Source of the DNA: Ardenticatenaceae bacterium
GTDB lineage: Bacteria; Chloroflexota; Anaerolineae; Promineifilales; Promineifilaceae
Length of the DNA: 64,000 bases
Reading direction: 5' to 3'
Assembly (NCBI GenBank): GCA_030065875.1
Contig: JASJCR010000005.1
Span: forward strand, 1-64,000
Shown: piece by piece, positions 9,996-55,089 of the stretch
How the letters are laid out: every line of letters starts with the position of its first letter
How positions within the stretch are numbered: the stretch's first letter is position 1
The notes under the pieces: model-generated
The model's database searches: none
What the model saw: the letters and a program-made list of their open reading frames with translations, nothing else
What the model was told of the DNA's origin: nothing
Made by a program: the position numbers and the translations under genes

Positions 9996-10069
9996 ACACG
10001 TCTTTGCACACTGCGGTATACATCATATTACTCTTTGTTCTAAAACCGCATCACGATAAGGAATATAAG

Positions 10070-10828
10070 ATGGCAAGAATTTTTGGCGTGGTTTCCCAAA
10101 AAGGGGGAGTCGGAAAAACCTCACTGGTGCAAAACTTGGGGGCAGAGCTGGCCCTGGCCGGCCGGCGGGTGCTGCAGGTGGATCTCGATCCACAGTCAAA
10201 CCTGACCGTTGGCTGGGGGATCGACCCGGTTGAAGAGCGGCTGACCGTTTATGATGCCCTGGAAAACCCGCAACAAACGGCCAACACCATTATCGGCCTG
10301 CGCGATAATCTCGATCTCATCCCGGCTGATCTCGATCTGGCAGCGGCCGAATTGGCCTACATCAATGCCATCGACCGCAACCACAAACTCAAAAAAGCGC
10401 TGACTCCAGTGGCCGATTATTATGATATCATCATGATTGACGCTCCACCCAGTTTGGGCTTCTTTACCGTCAACTCCCTGGCAGCGGCCAGCGACATCTT
10501 GATCCCACTGCAGGTGCATCCCTATGCGTACAAGGCGATCAATCAACTGTTTATCATTATCGACCAGGTGCGCGAAATAAATCCGGATCTCAACCTCTTC
10601 GGGCTTATTTTAACGATGTGGGATCAGCGAAATTCGCTTACGGGAGCGATTGAACAGGAGGCTCGACGCCGTTTTGAAGATCTGGTGTTTAGCAACGTGA
10701 TCCCGATCAACGTCCGGATCCCGGAAGCCACGCTGGAGGGGTTGAGCGTGGGTGAGTATGAAAGCAGCAGCAGTGGGGCCAAAGCGTATAAGGCGCTGGC
10801 TCAGGAGATGATTCACTATGGCGCGTAA
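10070..10828 (+). CDS. parA: ParA family partition ATPase
   Basis: 252 aa from the ATG at 10070 (AAGGAATATAAG upstream); an upstream in-frame start at 10004 lies in repeat DNA and is unlikely. The deviant Walker A KGGVGKTSLVQNLG with its signature Lys is at residues ~11-24. VDLDPQSNLT (A') and IIMIDAPPSLG (Walker B) follow. There is no N-terminal DNA-binding domain, so it is the small ParA/Soj type (type Ib-like when paired with an RHH protein). It would move plasmid or chromosome cargo along the nucleoid. Its stop overlaps the start of the downstream RHH gene by 11 bases, which indicates an operon. Phased decamers upstream are the likely centromere. Confidence 0.93.
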   Translation: MARIFGVVSQKGGVGKTSLVQNLGAELALAGRRVLQVDLDPQSNLTVGWGIDPVEERLTVYDALENPQQTANTIIGLRDNLDLIPADLDLAAAELAYINAIDRNHKLKKALTPVADYYDIIMIDAPPSLGFFTVNSLAAASDILIPLQVHPYAYKAINQLFIIIDQVREINPDLNLFGLILTMWDQRNSLTGAIEQEARRRFEDLVFSNVIPINVRIPEATLEGLSVGEYESSSSGAKAYKALAQEMIHYGA

Positions 10829-11192
10829 AGATGAATTGGCCAGTCGGTTGGGCAGCGGGTCGCAACCGCGCCGCCGGCCGTCCTGGCAAGACACAATCTC
10901 CGGACCGGCCGCCCCACCTGATGCCGACGTCAGCAGTGAAGAACCGGCCGAGACACCCAAGCCCCGCAAACCCCGAAAAGCCAAGGCGAAAAAGGCGGCC
11001 ATGGTCCGCAAAACCTATATTCTGACCCCGGATTTGGTCAACCGCGTGGCGAAAACCGCCGGCCGGGAACGGGTCAAAATCAACGACCTGGTGCGCTTCC
11101 TGCTCATCTCTTCGCTCGATATGCTCGATTCGGGAGAGCTGGAACTGCCGACCAAACCGGCCATGAGAGAGATTAATTTTGAGGAATTTTAG
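10818..11192 (+). CDS. Ribbon-helix-helix partner of ParA (ParB/ParG-like)
   Basis: 124 aa. The N-terminal ~55 residues are disordered, rich in Arg, Pro and Lys (RLGSGSQPRRRPS; PKPRKPRKAKAKK), like the flexible ParA-stimulating tails of ParG and Omega proteins. The C-terminal half is a ribbon-helix-helix fold: MVRKTYILTPDLVNRVAKTAGRERVKINDLVRFLLISSLDMLDSGEL, with strand VRKTYIL and two helices. Such proteins bind short direct repeats cooperatively and act as centromere-binding protein and autorepressor. The start ATG overlaps parA by 11 bp, with GGAG upstream. The assignment as centromere binder is an inference from domain and context. Confidence 0.8.
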   Translation: MARKDELASRLGSGSQPRRRPSWQDTISGPAAPPDADVSSEEPAETPKPRKPRKAKAKKAAMVRKTYILTPDLVNRVAKTAGRERVKINDLVRFLLISSLDMLDSGELELPTKPAMREINFEEF

Positions 11193-11203
11193 AGAAGGGT
11201 TTA

Positions 11204-11312
11204 CGGTGAAAGGTAGAAAGTAGAAGGTGAAAGGTATAAGGTGAAGGGTTATTTTTAAGTCACCCTATCTTATACCTTAAACCCTACACCTTAAACCCTA
11301 TGCCTTAGACCC
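11204..11312. repeat. Heptamer repeats GGTGAAA and CCTTAAA/ACCCTA
   Basis: Purine-rich units (GGTGAAA, GGTATAA) at about 11206-11250 face pyrimidine-rich units (CCTTAAACCCTA) at about 11258-11312, so the two halves can fold back on each other. They separate the partition pair from the DinD-like gene. Confidence 0.7.
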
Positions 11313-11325
11313 TAACTAGGAAAGC

Positions 11326-11340
11326 GTGACAATTTGTCAC
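11326..11340. promoter_or_regulatory. Inverted repeat GTGACA-N3-TGTCAC
   Basis: Perfect 6-bp arms around ATT, 18 bases before the DinD-like start. A likely operator, possibly SOS- or self-controlled; it does not match the classical LexA boxes. Confidence 0.5.
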
Positions 11341-11357
11341 GGGTTCAAAAAAAAGCT

Positions 11358-12203
11358 ATGTCTGAAGAAAAAAACAGCGAAATTGATTTATTTGAACAGG
11401 CGATTCGGCGCACGTGGGATCCGGATGAGGAAAAATGGTACTTCTCCGTTTCAGATGTCGTTGGCGTTTTGACCGACAGCAAGGATGCCAAGGCGTACTG
11501 GCGGACGATGAAGAGACGAGAGCCGCAGGTGGCTGAAGTCGCCAAAGGGTATCGCCTAATTGCGGCCGATGGCAAACGACGCATTGAAGATTGCGCCCAC
11601 GCCGAAGGGGTGCTGCGCGTCATCCAGTCGATTCCCAGCCCCAAAGCGGAACCGTTTAAGCGGTGGCTGGCCGAAGTTGGCTACCAGCGGCTGGAAGAGG
11701 TGCAAAATCCGGAGCTGGCCATCGACCGCATGCGCGAAGAATATCGCCTGCGCGGCTATAATGAAGAGTGGATCAACCAGCGCATCCAGTCAAAAATCGT
11801 GCGTGACGAGCTGACGGATGAATGGTCAAAACGAAAGGTGAAAGCCGGCCGGGAATACGCCATCCTGACCTCCATCATTTCCAAAGAAACATTTGGCATT
11901 ACTCCTTCAAAACACAAAAACATCAAGGGATTGCAAAAAGAAAATTTGCGCGATCATATGACCTCCCTCGAGCTGGTTCTAACGATGTTGGGGGAGGCAG
12001 CCACAACGGAATTTACCCGTCAGGATGATGCTCAAGGGTTTAACGAAAACAAGAAAACCGCCAGCAAAGGTGGCCAAATCGCCGGAAATGCCCGCCGTCA
12101 AATCGAAGCGGAAACCCGCCGCTCTGTGATCAGCTCCTCAAATTTTCTCCCCAAACCGGATGATGATGGGGAGCCTGAAGTTGATGATGACGTTCCATTC
12201 TAG
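11358..12203 (+). CDS. DinD-like protein with BRO-N domain
   Basis: 281 aa from the ATG at 11358; an upstream TTG at 11334 lies inside a palindrome. The N-terminal ~100 residues form a BRO-N/antirepressor domain (EQAIRRTWDPDEEKWYFSVSDVVGVLTDSKDAKAYWRTMKRR), known from phage antirepressors and DinD. The central part (ELAIDRMREEYRLRGYNEEWINQRIQSKIVRDELTDEWSKR; TFGITPSKHKNIKGLQKENLRDHMTSLELVLTMLGEAATTE) matches the DinD core, and the acidic tail EPEVDDDVPF is also DinD-like. E. coli DinD (274 aa) is SOS-induced and antagonises RecA filaments. Its place after the partition pair suggests plasmid or phage ancestry. Confidence 0.8.
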   Translation: MSEEKNSEIDLFEQAIRRTWDPDEEKWYFSVSDVVGVLTDSKDAKAYWRTMKRREPQVAEVAKGYRLIAADGKRRIEDCAHAEGVLRVIQSIPSPKAEPFKRWLAEVGYQRLEEVQNPELAIDRMREEYRLRGYNEEWINQRIQSKIVRDELTDEWSKRKVKAGREYAILTSIISKETFGITPSKHKNIKGLQKENLRDHMTSLELVLTMLGEAATTEFTRQDDAQGFNENKKTASKGGQIAGNARRQIEAETRRSVISSSNFLPKPDDDGEPEVDDDVPF

Positions 12204-33528: not shown

Positions 33529-33692
33529 CAGTATACTTTCGTATATGATACTTGAAAGTATCATACCCTGATTGCATATGCTTTTGCTGCTTATGTCAAT
33601 CGCGAGCCACCAACTTCACAATTTATGTCAACTAAACCCCTTGACACGCCACCCAATTTAACATAAAATTACATTATTATACTTTCAAGTAT
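33529..33692. promoter_or_regulatory. ATACTT-N2-AAGTAT operator boxes in a divergent promoter
   Basis: ATGATACTTGAAAGTATCAT (33545-33564) and ATACTTTCAAGTAT (33679-33692) share one inverted core; a degenerate third copy (ATACTTTCGTATA) is at about 33532. They flank the divergent intergenic region between the PfkB kinase and the AAA ATPase, one next to each start. The regulator is unknown. Confidence 0.6.
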
Positions 33693-33711
33693 TATACCGA
33701 GCGTGTATATT

Positions 33712-35262
33712 ATGGGTAAAACAATCTTTAAAGGCCGGTCGGCCGAACTTCAACTGCTCGATGAGCTCTGGGATCTGCCCCGCAGCACCCTTTTGATCCT
33801 TTACGGCCGTCGCCGCGTTGGCAAAACCCGTTTGCTGACCCACTGGCTGGAAAAGGTTCCGGAGAATTCCCTCTACTGGGTGGCCGAACCCACCTCAGCC
33901 TATGATCAGCTGCGCTCGTTTTCGCAGGCGCTCTACAATTATGCCCATCCCGACACGCCCGCACCACCCGAATTCACCTATGCCACCTGGGAACAGGCGT
34001 TTCAGCAGCTGGCCCGCATGTCCGAAGAGCAAAAAATTGCGATTTTTATCGATGAGGTAACCTATCTCATCGACGTGAACCCCAAATTTGTCGGGACCCT
34101 GCAAAAAGTGTGGGATCATTATCTCTCGGAAGCCAATTTGCTGATGGCCCTTTCCGGATCCCAGATGGGCATGATGCAAAAGCAGGTGCTCTCTTATGAT
34201 GCGCCGCTGTACGGCCGGGCCACCGCCCAGGTCAAGCTGCCCCCGCTGCCGTTTGACGTCACCACCCAATTTTTCCCGGATTATTCCGCCAAGGAGCGCG
34301 TGGCCCTTTACGGCATTTTTGGCGGCATTCCCGCCTATTGGGAAAGGCTGGATCCCCAGGCAACTATTTTTGAAAACATTTACGCCCAGCTGTTGACCTC
34401 CAACTCGCTGATGCAGGAAGAGCCGCGACTGCTGCTGCAGGATTTCCTCACCGATCCATACAATTATGTCAGCATCATGCGGGCGATCGCCCACGGTGCC
34501 AATACACAGAGCAAGATCGGCCGTCGCACCGGACTTTCACAGGGTCACGTTTCCAAGTATCTGGGGGTGCTGCGCGAAACCGGGTTTGTTGAGCGGCAGG
34601 TTCCGGTCACCGAATCGGCTGAAACCTCGCGCCGCGGCCGCTACTTTGTGACCGATCCCTATCTGCGCTTTTACTATCGCTTTTTGTCAACCAACCAGGC
34701 CCAGCTGGCGATGGGTGGTCAACAAAAAACGTTGCAAACCATTCAAGAACAGCTCGATGATTTTGTCGAGCAAAATACGTGGCGCGATTTGTGCCGGGAA
34801 TGGCTGAGTAAAGCCAGTCAAACCGGCATGCTGCCGTTTGATCTGGAAAAAGTGGGCGGGGCCTGGACCCGGTCACAGGAAGCCGGTCTGGCCGCCATCG
34901 ATCGGCCCGGCGGGCGCCTGATTTTAGGGGATTGTTTCTGGGGCAGCGAACTGGCATCCGGTCAATCCCTGCAGTCACTGATTCGCCGTACCCCTTCACT
35001 GCTGCCCAAAACGGGCGAGTGGGAAGTGTATTACATTACTTTTTCAAGTGCCGGATGGACCGATGAAGCGCAGGCGCTAGCCAGACAATTTGCCATGCGG
35101 GGAGAGCAAGGCAAACGTTGGAGAGCGGCCGGGGTGGAACTGGTCGAATTAAGCCGCATCAACGAGGATTTAGCCGCGTGGGGAGCGGGGCAGCAATCGC
35201 TCGTTGGTAGTCAGCTGATGGCGCCGGTGATTCAGCCGCGCCTGTTTAACGGGGTATTCTAA
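33712..35262 (+). CDS. AAA ATPase with C-terminal DUF234-like domain
   Basis: 516 aa from the ATG at 33712 (a GTG at 33703 is an alternative). N-terminal archaeal-type ATPase: FKGRSAELQLLDELW, Walker A LYGRRRVGKTRLLTHWL, Walker B KIAIFIDEVTYLID, sensor LLMALSGSQMGMM and the family-typical GIFGGIPAYWERLD. A winged-helix segment follows (NTQSKIGRRTGLSQGHVSKYLGVLRETGFVERQVPVTE), then the DUF234 nuclease-like region (GRYFVTDPYLRFYYRFL; AAIDRPGGRLILGDCFW). Families of this architecture are often mobile and of unknown role. The C-terminal domain is PD-(D/E)XK-like but I cannot point to all catalytic residues. Confidence 0.85.
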   Translation: MGKTIFKGRSAELQLLDELWDLPRSTLLILYGRRRVGKTRLLTHWLEKVPENSLYWVAEPTSAYDQLRSFSQALYNYAHPDTPAPPEFTYATWEQAFQQLARMSEEQKIAIFIDEVTYLIDVNPKFVGTLQKVWDHYLSEANLLMALSGSQMGMMQKQVLSYDAPLYGRATAQVKLPPLPFDVTTQFFPDYSAKERVALYGIFGGIPAYWERLDPQATIFENIYAQLLTSNSLMQEEPRLLLQDFLTDPYNYVSIMRAIAHGANTQSKIGRRTGLSQGHVSKYLGVLRETGFVERQVPVTESAETSRRGRYFVTDPYLRFYYRFLSTNQAQLAMGGQQKTLQTIQEQLDDFVEQNTWRDLCREWLSKASQTGMLPFDLEKVGGAWTRSQEAGLAAIDRPGGRLILGDCFWGSELASGQSLQSLIRRTPSLLPKTGEWEVYYITFSSAGWTDEAQALARQFAMRGEQGKRWRAAGVELVELSRINEDLAAWGAGQQSLVGSQLMAPVIQPRLFNGVF

Positions 35263-35304
35263 TGATGATTAAATGGTTTGGAGATTTACCGATGCCATAG
35301 ACGC

Positions 35305-35337
35305 AAAAAAAAACAAGCCACGGGGGAGACGTGGCTT
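35305..35337 (-). terminator. Rho-independent terminator of the small RNA
   Basis: On the minus strand, AAGCCACG pairs with CGTGGCTT (8 bp, 7-nt loop), followed by G and nine T residues (35313-35305). Confidence 0.85.
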
Positions 35338-35390
35338 GGCGGAATGTGACGGGACGCCTTAGTCAGGCGCTATTCGTCACTGCTGTGTTT
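35305..35390 (-). ncRNA. Candidate small RNA antisense to the initiator upstream region
   Basis: About 85 nt on the minus strand, bounded by a consensus promoter (35396-35424) and a textbook terminator (35305-35337). The body folds as a two-part stem: GTGACG 35346-35351 with CGTCAC 35375-35380, enclosing CGCCT/AGGCG around a 5-nt loop. It has no start codon with ribosome binding site. It lies 240 bp upstream of the replication-initiator-like gene, in the opposite direction, as plasmid copy-control RNAs often do; that role is inference. Confidence 0.65.
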
Positions 35391-35395
35391 CGTAG

Positions 35396-35424
35396 ATTAT
35401 ACCAAAATGTGCGTGAGTAAACAA
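35396..35424 (-). promoter_or_regulatory. Sigma-70 promoter of the small RNA
   Basis: On the minus strand TTGTTT (35424-35419), a 17-bp spacer and a perfect TATAAT (35401-35396) point towards the structured RNA. Confidence 0.75.
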
Positions 35425-35628
35425 GGGGATATTTGTTTATTCATCAATTTGGTCAGAGATCATTCCGCTTAGCCTCACATTATTTGTCTCCTTCAGCGGC
35501 CGCGGCCGCGTGGCAATTTGGACTCGAACGGCCGATCAGTTGGCAGCTAAATCTTACCCTTTAGCGGGTCAGAAAAACTGCTGGTGATCTAGACGTTTTC
35601 CAACTCTCAAAACGACGAAGGAGATGTC
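35425..35628. other. Leader region of the initiator gene
   Basis: No gene. It contains a GC-rich alternating block (GCGGCCGCGGCCGCG near 35497-35511) and a small hairpin GCTAAA (35547-35552) with TTTAGC (35560-35565). AAGGAG at 35618-35623 serves the downstream GTG start. No clear plus-strand promoter was found. Confidence 0.5.
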
Positions 35629-38097
35629 GTGCTCAATTCGCAGGTAGCCGAGCTCAAGCTTCTTGGCTACTATAGTCAAATCTACAACAGCATCATTCAA
35701 TCTGGCCAGGTTTGGCGGGTTAGCAAATACTTCTTGCGCCGCTGGGGACCCTATCTGGGGCCGACCCGTTTCTGGACGATCGTCACCGCGCGTCAGCTGT
35801 GCTACCGCAACCAGCATGAAGATTGGTTTGAAGGGTATGATGCGGCCGTTGCCCAGGAGATTCAGATCAGCCGCGCCCATTACCGTCGTCTAAAGGCCGA
35901 AATGGACGATCAAAACGGCCTGCTCTCTAGCTTCATCTCACGACAAGCAACCACTTATCACGTGGTGAACGGCAAAACACGGCCGAAACCCACTCTCTAT
36001 CACGTCCGGCTTGATGATCCGCTCACGCCGGCCGACGCCGCCTATCTGGCCGGCTGGCTTCGCCAACGGCAGGTAAAGCGCCGCACAGATGATGTGGTCC
36101 GCCTGCTGCACAGCGCCCGGGAAATTTCCCGCCAGGAATTACTTGACCCTCACCCTGCCCCCATCGCGTGGGGCGGTACCGTCGGCTTGGAACCGGTTAC
36201 CGTCCTGCAGGTGGTGCGGCAGGTGTTTGGGGGCCATATCGCCGATCAACCGGAAATTATCAAAGCGTCTGAGGCGCTGCACGCCTATCTGACCGATAAT
36301 GACTTTGTCGGCAAACAGTATTTCCGTCACCGCTGGCTAAAGCACCTCAAGGCGGGACCGGCATTCTTGTTAATTTATCTCCGCAGCCTCTGTTACTACA
36401 ACGAACAAAGTGGGGAGCTGCGCAATGAAATCATTGTCGATCGCCAGCAGCTGGCCCAAACGCTGGCCGTCAAGCCCAACACCATTTCCGACTGGCTGAA
36501 AACATTGGCTACCATTGCCCCACAGCAAACGCTGCCCCCGTTTTTAACCCTGCAGAAAAAAGGGCGCACGGCCGAAAATACGTATGTTTTTACCTACCAG
36601 GTCGGAATGCTCGATCCACTGACCCCGGACGATCTACCGCAATATGAAGCGGCCGTTTCAGCCCACGATCCCTCATCTCCACAGCCGATCACCATCACAA
36701 ATAGGGGTCGATCCGAAAATGAGCGTCACAAGAAAGAGGAAAACACCCCATCTCAATCCGAAAATGAGATTCACAAAGAGCCTCAATTTGCCCACTCTCA
36801 ATCTGATTTTGAGCGTCACGACCCGGCCAATAGCGAGCCTCGATCCGAAAATGAGCGTCTCGCCACCCCGTCTGAATCCGAATTTGAGCATCACAACAGC
36901 GTTAAAGCCCTTGGTCGATCCGAAAATGAACGTCACGATCAAGGGCAGAATCCGAATTTGAGCGCGGCTGAACACAAAAATGATAGGGGGTCAGTGCCAG
37001 AATGCGCGTCTTTTAAATACTTCCCAACTCTTTTATCACTGCAGCAGGATGAAATAAACACCTGGCTGGCGGCGGCCGGCTGGCCATTTTCGCTGGACCT
37101 GCTGAGACAATCGTTGGTTCATGCGATTTCTCAGAATGATTTGGACACGTTCCTGGATTTTCTGGGGATCGATCCTGGTGGCCCAGCCAGACAGCGAATC
37201 AGGGCGAGCGGATTGTCAGCGGTAGAGGGCACGGCGTGGTGGCTCTACGCGCTGACCCAGCCTGGTTTACAGCGGCCGATGCATTTTGTCATTGCCCGGA
37301 TGTCGGCGGGGGTGCCGCCCCCGCGGCCGTTTGTTGATTTGGCCAACCTGTCGGTTGAAGGGTGGCTTACCTTCGCCTTAAACGAGCAGCTTCCAGAAGC
37401 ATTGCGGCTTGAGTGGGGGAGTGATCCGGTTTACGGGCATTGGTCAGAGATTTACGGCTTAGAGAGAGAGCTGCCGCTCCTGGTGATGGGTTGGGTGGAG
37501 GTGCTAGACGAGCCGCTGTACAGACACATGATTCGTGTAGTGGATAGTCAGGATAGCGTGACCGCGGATGATGCCCATCCGGCTGAGGGATGGTGGCCGG
37601 CCGCTTGTGAAATTCTTCAACAGCAGATGCCCGCATCGATATACGAAATTTTTGTCAAGCCTATACAATGTGCATGGGGTAGGGGAGCGGTGTCTTTGTC
37701 GGTGCCGGATCAAACCGCTCAAACGTACCTCGAGCAGGCGCTGCGGCCGCAGATCGAGGAGGTTCTGGCGCAAATAGCCGGCCGGTCGCTTGAGCTTGAG
37801 TTTCACGTTCAAGGTGTGAGCGAGGACCAACCAACCGGTGTCGACGAAACCGCCCGCTATCGGTCGATTTGGCAGGAGGTTAAAGAGGCGCTTTCTTTGC
37901 AAATGGCCCGGTCAACCTATGATCAGTGGCTGCACAAAAGTGAATGTATTGAAGGGAAGCCCGGTGAGCTGATTGTGGCAGTAGAGACCGCTTATGCTCA
38001 AGAATGGTTGGAAAATCGGCTGCGCCCGTTAATCGAAAAAAACCTGCGGCTCGCTGCGGCCGGTGAGGATTTCGAGGTCATTTTTGTTGTATCTTAA
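35629..38097 (+). CDS. Replication-initiator-like protein with two C-terminal DnaA domain-I modules
   Basis: 822 aa from a GTG with AAGGAG five bases upstream. The N-terminal ~330 residues hold helical DNA-binding regions, one being LRNEIIVDRQQLAQTLAVKPNTISDWLKTLATI, a winged-helix pattern as in plasmid initiators. Residues ~360-445 are a hydrophilic linker with seven SENERH-like repeats, encoded by iteron-like DNA (36708-36968). The C-terminus has two tandem DnaA_N-type domains: ~WWPAACEILQQQMPASIYEIFVKPIQCAWG...LSVPDQTAQTYLEQALRPQIEEVL and IWQEVKEALSLQMARSTYDQWLHKSECIEG...VAVETAYAQEWLENRLRPLIEKNL. DnaA domain I recruits helicase DnaB and partners. There is no AAA+ or DnaA domain IV. Its role as initiator is inferred. 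Confidence 0.75.
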   Translation: MLNSQVAELKLLGYYSQIYNSIIQSGQVWRVSKYFLRRWGPYLGPTRFWTIVTARQLCYRNQHEDWFEGYDAAVAQEIQISRAHYRRLKAEMDDQNGLLSSFISRQATTYHVVNGKTRPKPTLYHVRLDDPLTPADAAYLAGWLRQRQVKRRTDDVVRLLHSAREISRQELLDPHPAPIAWGGTVGLEPVTVLQVVRQVFGGHIADQPEIIKASEALHAYLTDNDFVGKQYFRHRWLKHLKAGPAFLLIYLRSLCYYNEQSGELRNEIIVDRQQLAQTLAVKPNTISDWLKTLATIAPQQTLPPFLTLQKKGRTAENTYVFTYQVGMLDPLTPDDLPQYEAAVSAHDPSSPQPITITNRGRSENERHKKEENTPSQSENEIHKEPQFAHSQSDFERHDPANSEPRSENERLATPSESEFEHHNSVKALGRSENERHDQGQNPNLSAAEHKNDRGSVPECASFKYFPTLLSLQQDEINTWLAAAGWPFSLDLLRQSLVHAISQNDLDTFLDFLGIDPGGPARQRIRASGLSAVEGTAWWLYALTQPGLQRPMHFVIARMSAGVPPPRPFVDLANLSVEGWLTFALNEQLPEALRLEWGSDPVYGHWSEIYGLERELPLLVMGWVEVLDEPLYRHMIRVVDSQDSVTADDAHPAEGWWPAACEILQQQMPASIYEIFVKPIQCAWGRGAVSLSVPDQTAQTYLEQALRPQIEEVLAQIAGRSLELEFHVQGVSEDQPTGVDETARYRSIWQEVKEALSLQMARSTYDQWLHKSECIEGKPGELIVAVETAYAQEWLENRLRPLIEKNLRLAAAGEDFEVIFVVS
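36708..36968 (+). repeat. Seven iteron-like repeats inside the initiator gene
   Basis: Core GATCCGAAAATGAGCGTCAC, in copies starting at 36708, 36753, 36798, 36840, 36873, 36915 and 36947. Spacings are 45, 45, 42, 33, 42 and ~33 bp, always in frame. The peptide repeat is SENERH/SEFEHH. Conservation at codon third positions, as well as in the peptide, hints that the DNA itself is a binding site. Phage lambda O is the known precedent for an origin inside an initiator gene. Confidence 0.8.
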
Positions 38098-54723: not shown

Positions 54724-55089
54724 ATGAAGGTATTGGGTATTCGTTTTTCAGTAGTAAACAAGGAAGCCAGCGCTCTGGCTGATTTTTTGGGTTCAAATGG
54801 ATTGGGTCTGCCGGAACAGGATTTGGGAATGGGGGATGCGGAAGGATTTTTTGGCGCGGTATTCCCGGCCGGGGAGCACAGCTGGATTGAAATGTGGCAG
54901 GAAGGGGAAGGTATGGAGGCGACCATCATGCTCCACATCGTCACCGATGATGCTGACGCGTGGGCGGAACAGGCAAAAGCGAATGGACTCAACCCGCACG
55001 GCCCGACTGACGCCCATGGAGAACGGATCTATTATCTTCAGGGACCGGGCGGGCTGCCCATCGCATTTTTGTCAAAACTGCCCTCATAA
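54724..55089 (+). CDS. VOC (glyoxalase-fold) family protein
   Basis: 121 aa. Single-domain VOC protein with the two beta-alpha-beta-beta-beta modules: KVLGIRFSVVNKEASALADFLGSNGLGLP and HIVTDDADAWAEQAKANGLNPHGPTDAHGERIYYLQGPGGLPIAFLSKL. Metal ligands are not obvious, as in many small members. Divergent from the TetR gene, with the operator in between, so it may belong to the same regulon. Function unknown. Confidence 0.85.
   Translation: MKVLGIRFSVVNKEASALADFLGSNGLGLPEQDLGMGDAEGFFGAVFPAGEHSWIEMWQEGEGMEATIMLHIVTDDADAWAEQAKANGLNPHGPTDAHGERIYYLQGPGGLPIAFLSKLPS

Follow-up and report, generated by a model that had tools for sequence, protein, structure and literature searches.

A probable counter-transcribed RNA upstream of a replication initiator-like gene in an Ardenticatenaceae bacterium

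In the repABC replicons of Alphaproteobacteria, the gene for an antisense RNA is located between repB and repC; repC itself contains the origin of replication (PMC3155836, PMC6090056). Plasmids of the I-complex (ColIb-P9, IncB, IncK) and of the IncL/M group encode Inc RNA or RNAI, and the expression of their repZ or repA is pseudoknot-dependent (PMC7646527, PMC10724649). In these plasmids, a hairpin loop of the leader pairs with another part of the same molecule, which decides whether the initiator is translated, and the antisense RNA is reported to compete with this pairing (Asano and Mizobuchi 1998, cited in PMC7646527; PMC10724649). In Synechocystis, the abundant antisense RNA asRNA1 is found at the replication locus of plasmid pSYSA and sets its copy number (PMC9978351). 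The antisense RNA ArrA of Bacillus subtilis overlaps the 5' untranslated region of dnaA (PMC12112137). No antisense copy-control RNA described in Chloroflexota was found in the literature searched.

The DNA analysed here, called the window, is a stretch of 64,000 nucleotides from an uncultured Ardenticatenaceae bacterium (Chloroflexota, Anaerolineae). It carries a small RNA gene on the minus strand, ahead of a replication initiator-like gene (Table 1). This RNA is probably a plasmid-type counter-transcribed RNA that would limit the synthesis of the replication initiator.

Table 1. Features of the window at and around the antisense RNA
Feature	Position	Strand	Remarks
ATPase promoter TTGACA-17-TAAAAT	33641..33669	+	Candidate source of the sense transcript, via read-through
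ATPase_2/DUF234 gene	33703..35262	+	Co-directional with the initiator; family f1, always upstream of the RNA
Antisense RNA body	35305..35391	-	~87 nt; two hairpins; 3' end is the nine-T run
Nine T after the terminator hairpin	35313-35305	-	
RNA intrinsic terminator hairpin CAAGCCACGTCTCCCCCGTGGCTTG	35314..35338	-	9-bp stem, loop TCTCCCC
SD-mimic GGGGGAGACG	35322..35331	+	Loop of the hairpin complementary to the terminator; complementarity, predicted fold
RNA promoter TTGTTT-17-TATAAT	35396..35424	-	Sigma-70-type; best promoter of the intergenic region
-10 TATAAT of the RNA promoter	35401-35396	-	
-35 TTGTTT of the RNA promoter	35424-35419	-	
Inverted repeat covering the -35	35413..35444		13-bp stem; possible operator
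Anti-SD element TGTCTCCTTC	35485..35494	+	In the initiator leader; would pair with SD or SD-mimic; complementarity, predicted fold
Initiator Shine-Dalgarno (SD) region GAAGGAGAT	35617..35625	+	Paired with the anti-SD in the predicted leader fold
Replication initiator-like gene	35629..38097	+	822 aa; DnaA N-terminal domains, HTH region
Seven 22-nt iterons, consensus TCGATCCGAAAATGAGCGTCAC	36708..36964	+	Within the initiator gene; likely origin

Does the RNA gene stand out from chance? The initial annotation had described a consensus promoter, a structured body of ~85 nt and a terminator with nine T residues, in that order on the minus strand, and all three are confirmed. The promoter scores 13.9 by position-weight matrix, the maximum of the intergenic region, and only 16 sites in the 128 kb of window strand score at least 12; a stricter rule with separate limits for each hexamer missed this promoter. 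The RNA body folds at -32.9 kcal/mol (z -5.5), and none of 200 dinucleotide shuffles is equally stable. When both strands of the 64 kb were scanned for a promoter of at least 12 followed by a terminator 40-180 nt further on, two units were found in the whole window and none in 15 dinucleotide-shuffled windows; the second unit spans an ORF start at 54724. On account of the promoter score, the fold and the absence of units from shuffled windows, the RNA unit is real and goes beyond chance expectation. It has the general traits of counter-transcribed RNAs, namely its own promoter, compact stem-loops, an intrinsic terminator and a place on the strand opposite the rep leader. Its 5' end is 238 bp ahead of the initiator start, in agreement with the ~240 bp and the opposite orientation noted at the outset. 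Rfam gave no match to the RNA at the gathering score and chance-level matches only below it, and a DNA search with the RNA in its own and 58 other genomes returned only itself.

What kind of protein does the downstream gene encode? Pfam and NCBIfam returned only DnaA N-terminal matches (the best at 746-804, the second from about 656) and a weak HTH match, with no RepC. The N-terminal part of the protein has a mean pLDDT of 61 in its predicted structure and no PDB match at E 0.001 or better, and for these reasons no fold is claimed for it. The core of the iterons, AAAATGAG, is common to the window, L084 (16288-16551) and L080 (6322-6473); the arrays have a spacing of ~45 nt and all lie within the gene. 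Judging from the iterons, the window gene is likely to be an initiator with the origin inside its own gene. The in-gene arrays also code for repeats in a linker of the initiator protein. Relatives of the initiator were absent from plasmid and viral collections, and a search of a genome collection gave three contigs only, all already among the whole-genome matches.

At a distance of 25 kb from the initiator, positions 10004-12203 of the window encode ParA and a small ParB-like partner ORF with no Pfam match (together 10004-11192), followed by a Bro-N antirepressor-like gene. With these genes in the window, the contig may be part of a plasmid or chromid; its two ends were compared and do not overlap. 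The neighbours of the locus (parA, parB, the ATPase gene and the initiator with in-gene iterons) appear to mark a replicon backbone with a repABC-like order. The ATPase promoter lies between two palindromes, TATRATACTTKMAAGTATYATA (33544-33565 and 33675-33696), that are nearly identical and operator-like.

Is the RNA conserved together with the initiator? Five more genomes of the family also have the ATPase-initiator pair, which in two of them is interrupted by a contig end. In all five family relatives, the space separating the two genes holds at least one hairpin and a terminator behind an antisense promoter, which faces away from the initiator on the opposite strand, has a 17-bp spacer, scores 12.5-14.3 and is the best of its region. 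Two-hairpin RNAs occupy the equivalent site in L003, L004, L005 and L046. The RNAs of L003 and L005 are identical and their promoters nearly so, while the flanks have diverged. The short forms in the window, L003, L004 and L046 have the two-hairpin plan and an AAGCC/GGCTT terminator stem in common, their sequences being otherwise widely different. Covariation among relatives, which the initial annotation had proposed as a check, was seen by eye only, in the pair after AAGCC (A-U in the window and L046, U-A in L003, G-C in L004), as MAFFT misplaces hairpin 1 of the short RNAs.

A longer RNA of ~150 nt is found at the equivalent site in family f46 (L053, L055, L056), where the initiator comes after parA and parB without an ATPase gene. 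Its promoters score 15.3-15.4 with a 17-bp spacer and are again the best of their regions. The long RNA has two hairpins whose loops are equal within one RNA and covary between genomes (GTGGCA or ATGGCA). In a DNA search of 12 genomes of this family, it was found only beside the initiator, save for a 33-base reverse-strand match within the same locus. The linkage of the RNA to a replication initiator is thus found across lineages. Inverted repeats also cover the RNA promoter of L046 and, by eye, those of the f46 loci, and similar cassettes with par genes are present in L078 and L079. In f46 (L081 7714-7861, L082 9351-9427, L083 2348-2458), several hairpins in and shortly past the RNA have a UGGCA-type loop in common. 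In relatives, the stretch from the RNA to the initiator holds near-perfect palindromes, unrelated in sequence, at L078 3638-3670, in the gap of L038 (G003) and at L084 15176-15194; both arms differ between L003 and L005, and the palindromes could be operators or repetitive elements that were inserted there.

How might the RNA act on the initiator? The sense message would start either at the promoter of the ATPase gene or near 35274, where there is a weak site, and run through the RNA region into the initiator gene. In this message, the hairpin complementary to the RNA terminator would display a loop that copies the initiator SD. The loop would capture the anti-SD element, leaving the true SD free for ribosomes. 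Abundant RNA would bind the loop, upon which the anti-SD would shift to the SD and initiator translation would be turned off. As the copies of the replicon increased, the RNA would increase too, and the initiator output per copy would fall. From the sequence comparisons that follow, we infer that both strands are transcribed, that the switch operates and that copy number is controlled.

In the predicted fold of the window, the SD-mimic is an exposed loop, GGGGAGA, which is complementary to the TCTCCCC loop of the RNA. The leader is predicted to fold with a helix between TGTCTCCTTC and GAAGGAGAT, and the pairings of the anti-SD with the SD and with the SD-mimic are mutually exclusive. L003 follows an equivalent plan in different letters (TCGGGGGAA, TTCCCCCGA, GGGGAAAA). 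The elements of L046 are GCAGAGGTG, CACCTCTGT and AGACAG, with a linker used instead of the loop, and in L004 the role of the SD-mimic is taken by a hairpin arm. An opposite-strand copy of the SD that competes for the anti-SD is therefore predicted in four divergent short-form loci. The window leader fold has no unusual stability (z -0.94), the SD-mimic/anti-SD helix of the window is not unusual by itself (p 0.25), and the anti-SD by itself reaches p 0.03 in the window only. Small leader ORFs are present (e.g., 35433-35564), none of them supported.

The three-way complementarity was scored as the best pair of overlapping helices, one between the RNA complement and the leader and one between the SD and the leader, against shuffled controls. 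With the leader shuffled, p was 0.030 in the window, 0.030 in L003, 0.022 in L004 and 0.032 in L046, values of only about 0.03 each that are optimistic because the statistic was devised after the window, L003, L046 and in part L004 had been seen by eye. Shuffling the RNA complement gave 0.03, 0.04, 0.03 and 0.01 in the same order. In L004, the helices scored differ from those seen by eye. The pattern is absent from the long forms L006 (0.64), L053 (0.07; 0.068), L055 (0.09; 0.086) and L056 (0.42), of which L053 and L055 are borderline. No significant signal was obtained from the antisense strand of the four short forms (p 0.09-0.62) or from the ATPase end (p 0.22). The stronger part of the test is the matrix of cognate and non-cognate combinations: the cognate combination is the best in all four columns and the first of 24 pairings of the four short-form loci, and this ranking is stable across three SD windows and overlaps of 2-4, L046 being lost at an overlap of 5. 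What the comparisons support is an RNA gene that is conserved along with the initiator, and three elements that are predicted to compete. The resemblance to plasmid counter-transcribed copy-control RNAs that had been suggested for the locus gains support from this conservation, from the replicon backbone and from the SD-mimic opposite the RNA.

Competition by the SD-mimic is sensible only if the initiator message includes the RNA complement. Does the message cover the RNA region? The best sense-strand promoter in the intergenic region of the window scores 8.0, against 13.9 for the antisense promoter, and just upstream of the RNA there is no strong sense promoter, only a weak site near 35246-35274. 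No sense terminator was found in the window between the ATPase gene and the initiator (35262-35629), which makes read-through from the ATPase promoter possible. In L006, the RNA terminator ends ~4 nt past the ATPase stop codon, leaving no space in the gap for a separate sense promoter. The leader of L046 has one terminator-like hairpin. For the proposed competition, read-through from the ATPase gene into the initiator has to be assumed. L052 (1683-2001; G200), the locus of a distant initiator relative, has strong sense and antisense promoters facing each other and, within the leader, a strong terminator in the sense direction, the layout expected for antisense-driven attenuation.

It is rather unlikely, but the best of the alternatives, that the arrangement is divergent, with an initiator message that begins downstream of the RNA and an RNA that is not counter-transcribed and acts in trans or on other targets. 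The best sense promoters of L003, L005, L046, L055 and L056 lie between the RNA and the initiator, and a message started there would be without the RNA complement; the C-rich loop of the window RNA, UCUCCCCC, could also contact the SD sequence GGAGA. However, the window has no comparable sense promoter in this stretch (best 5.5), direct duplexes between the RNA and the initiator translation start are no better than in shuffles and do not favour cognate pairs, and a divergent arrangement leaves the competition by the SD-mimic unexplained.

A second alternative, and an improbable one, is that the RNA belongs to the ATPase gene, with the ATPase or its 3' end as partner or target in place of the initiator. 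The RNA terminator ends about 4-140 nt past the ATPase stop codon, and in G009 and G010 an ATPase gene and a long-form RNA precede a different, unrelated downstream gene. Against this, the f46 RNA precedes an initiator behind par genes without any ATPase, and the three-way pattern ties the RNA complement to the initiator leader and not to the ATPase end. In G009 and G010 (L085 2-322, L086 6239-7714), the genes that follow the RNA form pairs that are related to each other and unrelated to the window initiator; the control module could perhaps be swapped from one replication gene to another. That the act of antisense transcription matters and not its product, by interference or by insulating the initiator from ATPase read-through, is equally doubtful: a strong promoter does face the upstream gene, and two terminators (L004, L006) seem by eye to be usable in reverse too, but the RNA body keeps two hairpins despite differing sequences, RNA and promoter persist between the diverged flanks of L003 and L005, and the loops carry the SD-mimic.

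If the RNA is a counter-transcribed regulator of the initiator, as we favour, what would the locus represent? We tentatively suggest a class of Chloroflexota replicon that has not been described before. Its backbone would combine an antisense RNA with par genes, an ATPase of the DUF234 type and an initiator that has DnaA domains and iterons within its gene; it would be convergent with repABC and equipped with a new switch based on a copy of the SD. On balance, this reading remains somewhat short of probable. If true, it would provide a replicon backbone for Anaerolineae and a basis for developing vectors in a phylum that is hard to grow, and the repABC layout would have arisen independently once more. 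The SD-mimic model makes exact predictions at the level of single bases that can be tested with reporters. What appears to be new here is the SD copy opposite the RNA, predicted to compete for the leader anti-SD in the four short-form loci.

How does the locus compare with the known systems? Like pSYSA, it has an antisense RNA at a replication locus, but asRNA1 acts together with RNase E and an mRNA that is the likely primer of replication, and the initiator CyRepA1 is unrelated. ArrA also lies at the 5' side of an initiator gene, but dnaA is chromosomal and no replicon backbone accompanies it. The closest layout is that of repABC, with par genes, an antisense RNA encoded in the space ahead of the initiator and, by inference from the iterons, an origin inside the initiator gene. 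In contrast to repABC, the window has no recognised RepC domain in its initiator by Pfam and NCBIfam, and the relation thus appears to be one of likeness and not of membership. There is an extra ATPase gene between par and the initiator, iterons are present where repC of p42d has none (PMC3155836), and the RNA is ~87 nt long as against ~50 nt (PMC6090056). Nor is there a single operon: parA of the window is 25 kb away, and the par genes of relatives are near, with the ATPase or another gene between. The window leader also differs in lacking a sense terminator, for which reason control of translation is proposed and not attenuation. In the proposed mechanism, the antisense RNA competes with a pairing of a hairpin loop in the leader, as in the I-complex, and the complementarity for this is found in the four short-form loci. 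Unlike the I-complex, the loop here copies the SD and would compete directly for the anti-SD, there is no evident leader-peptide gene, the initiator is unrelated and the RNA has two hairpins. Most likely, the RNA keeps the initiator SD sequestered, which would place the logic of the I-complex in a repABC-like layout.
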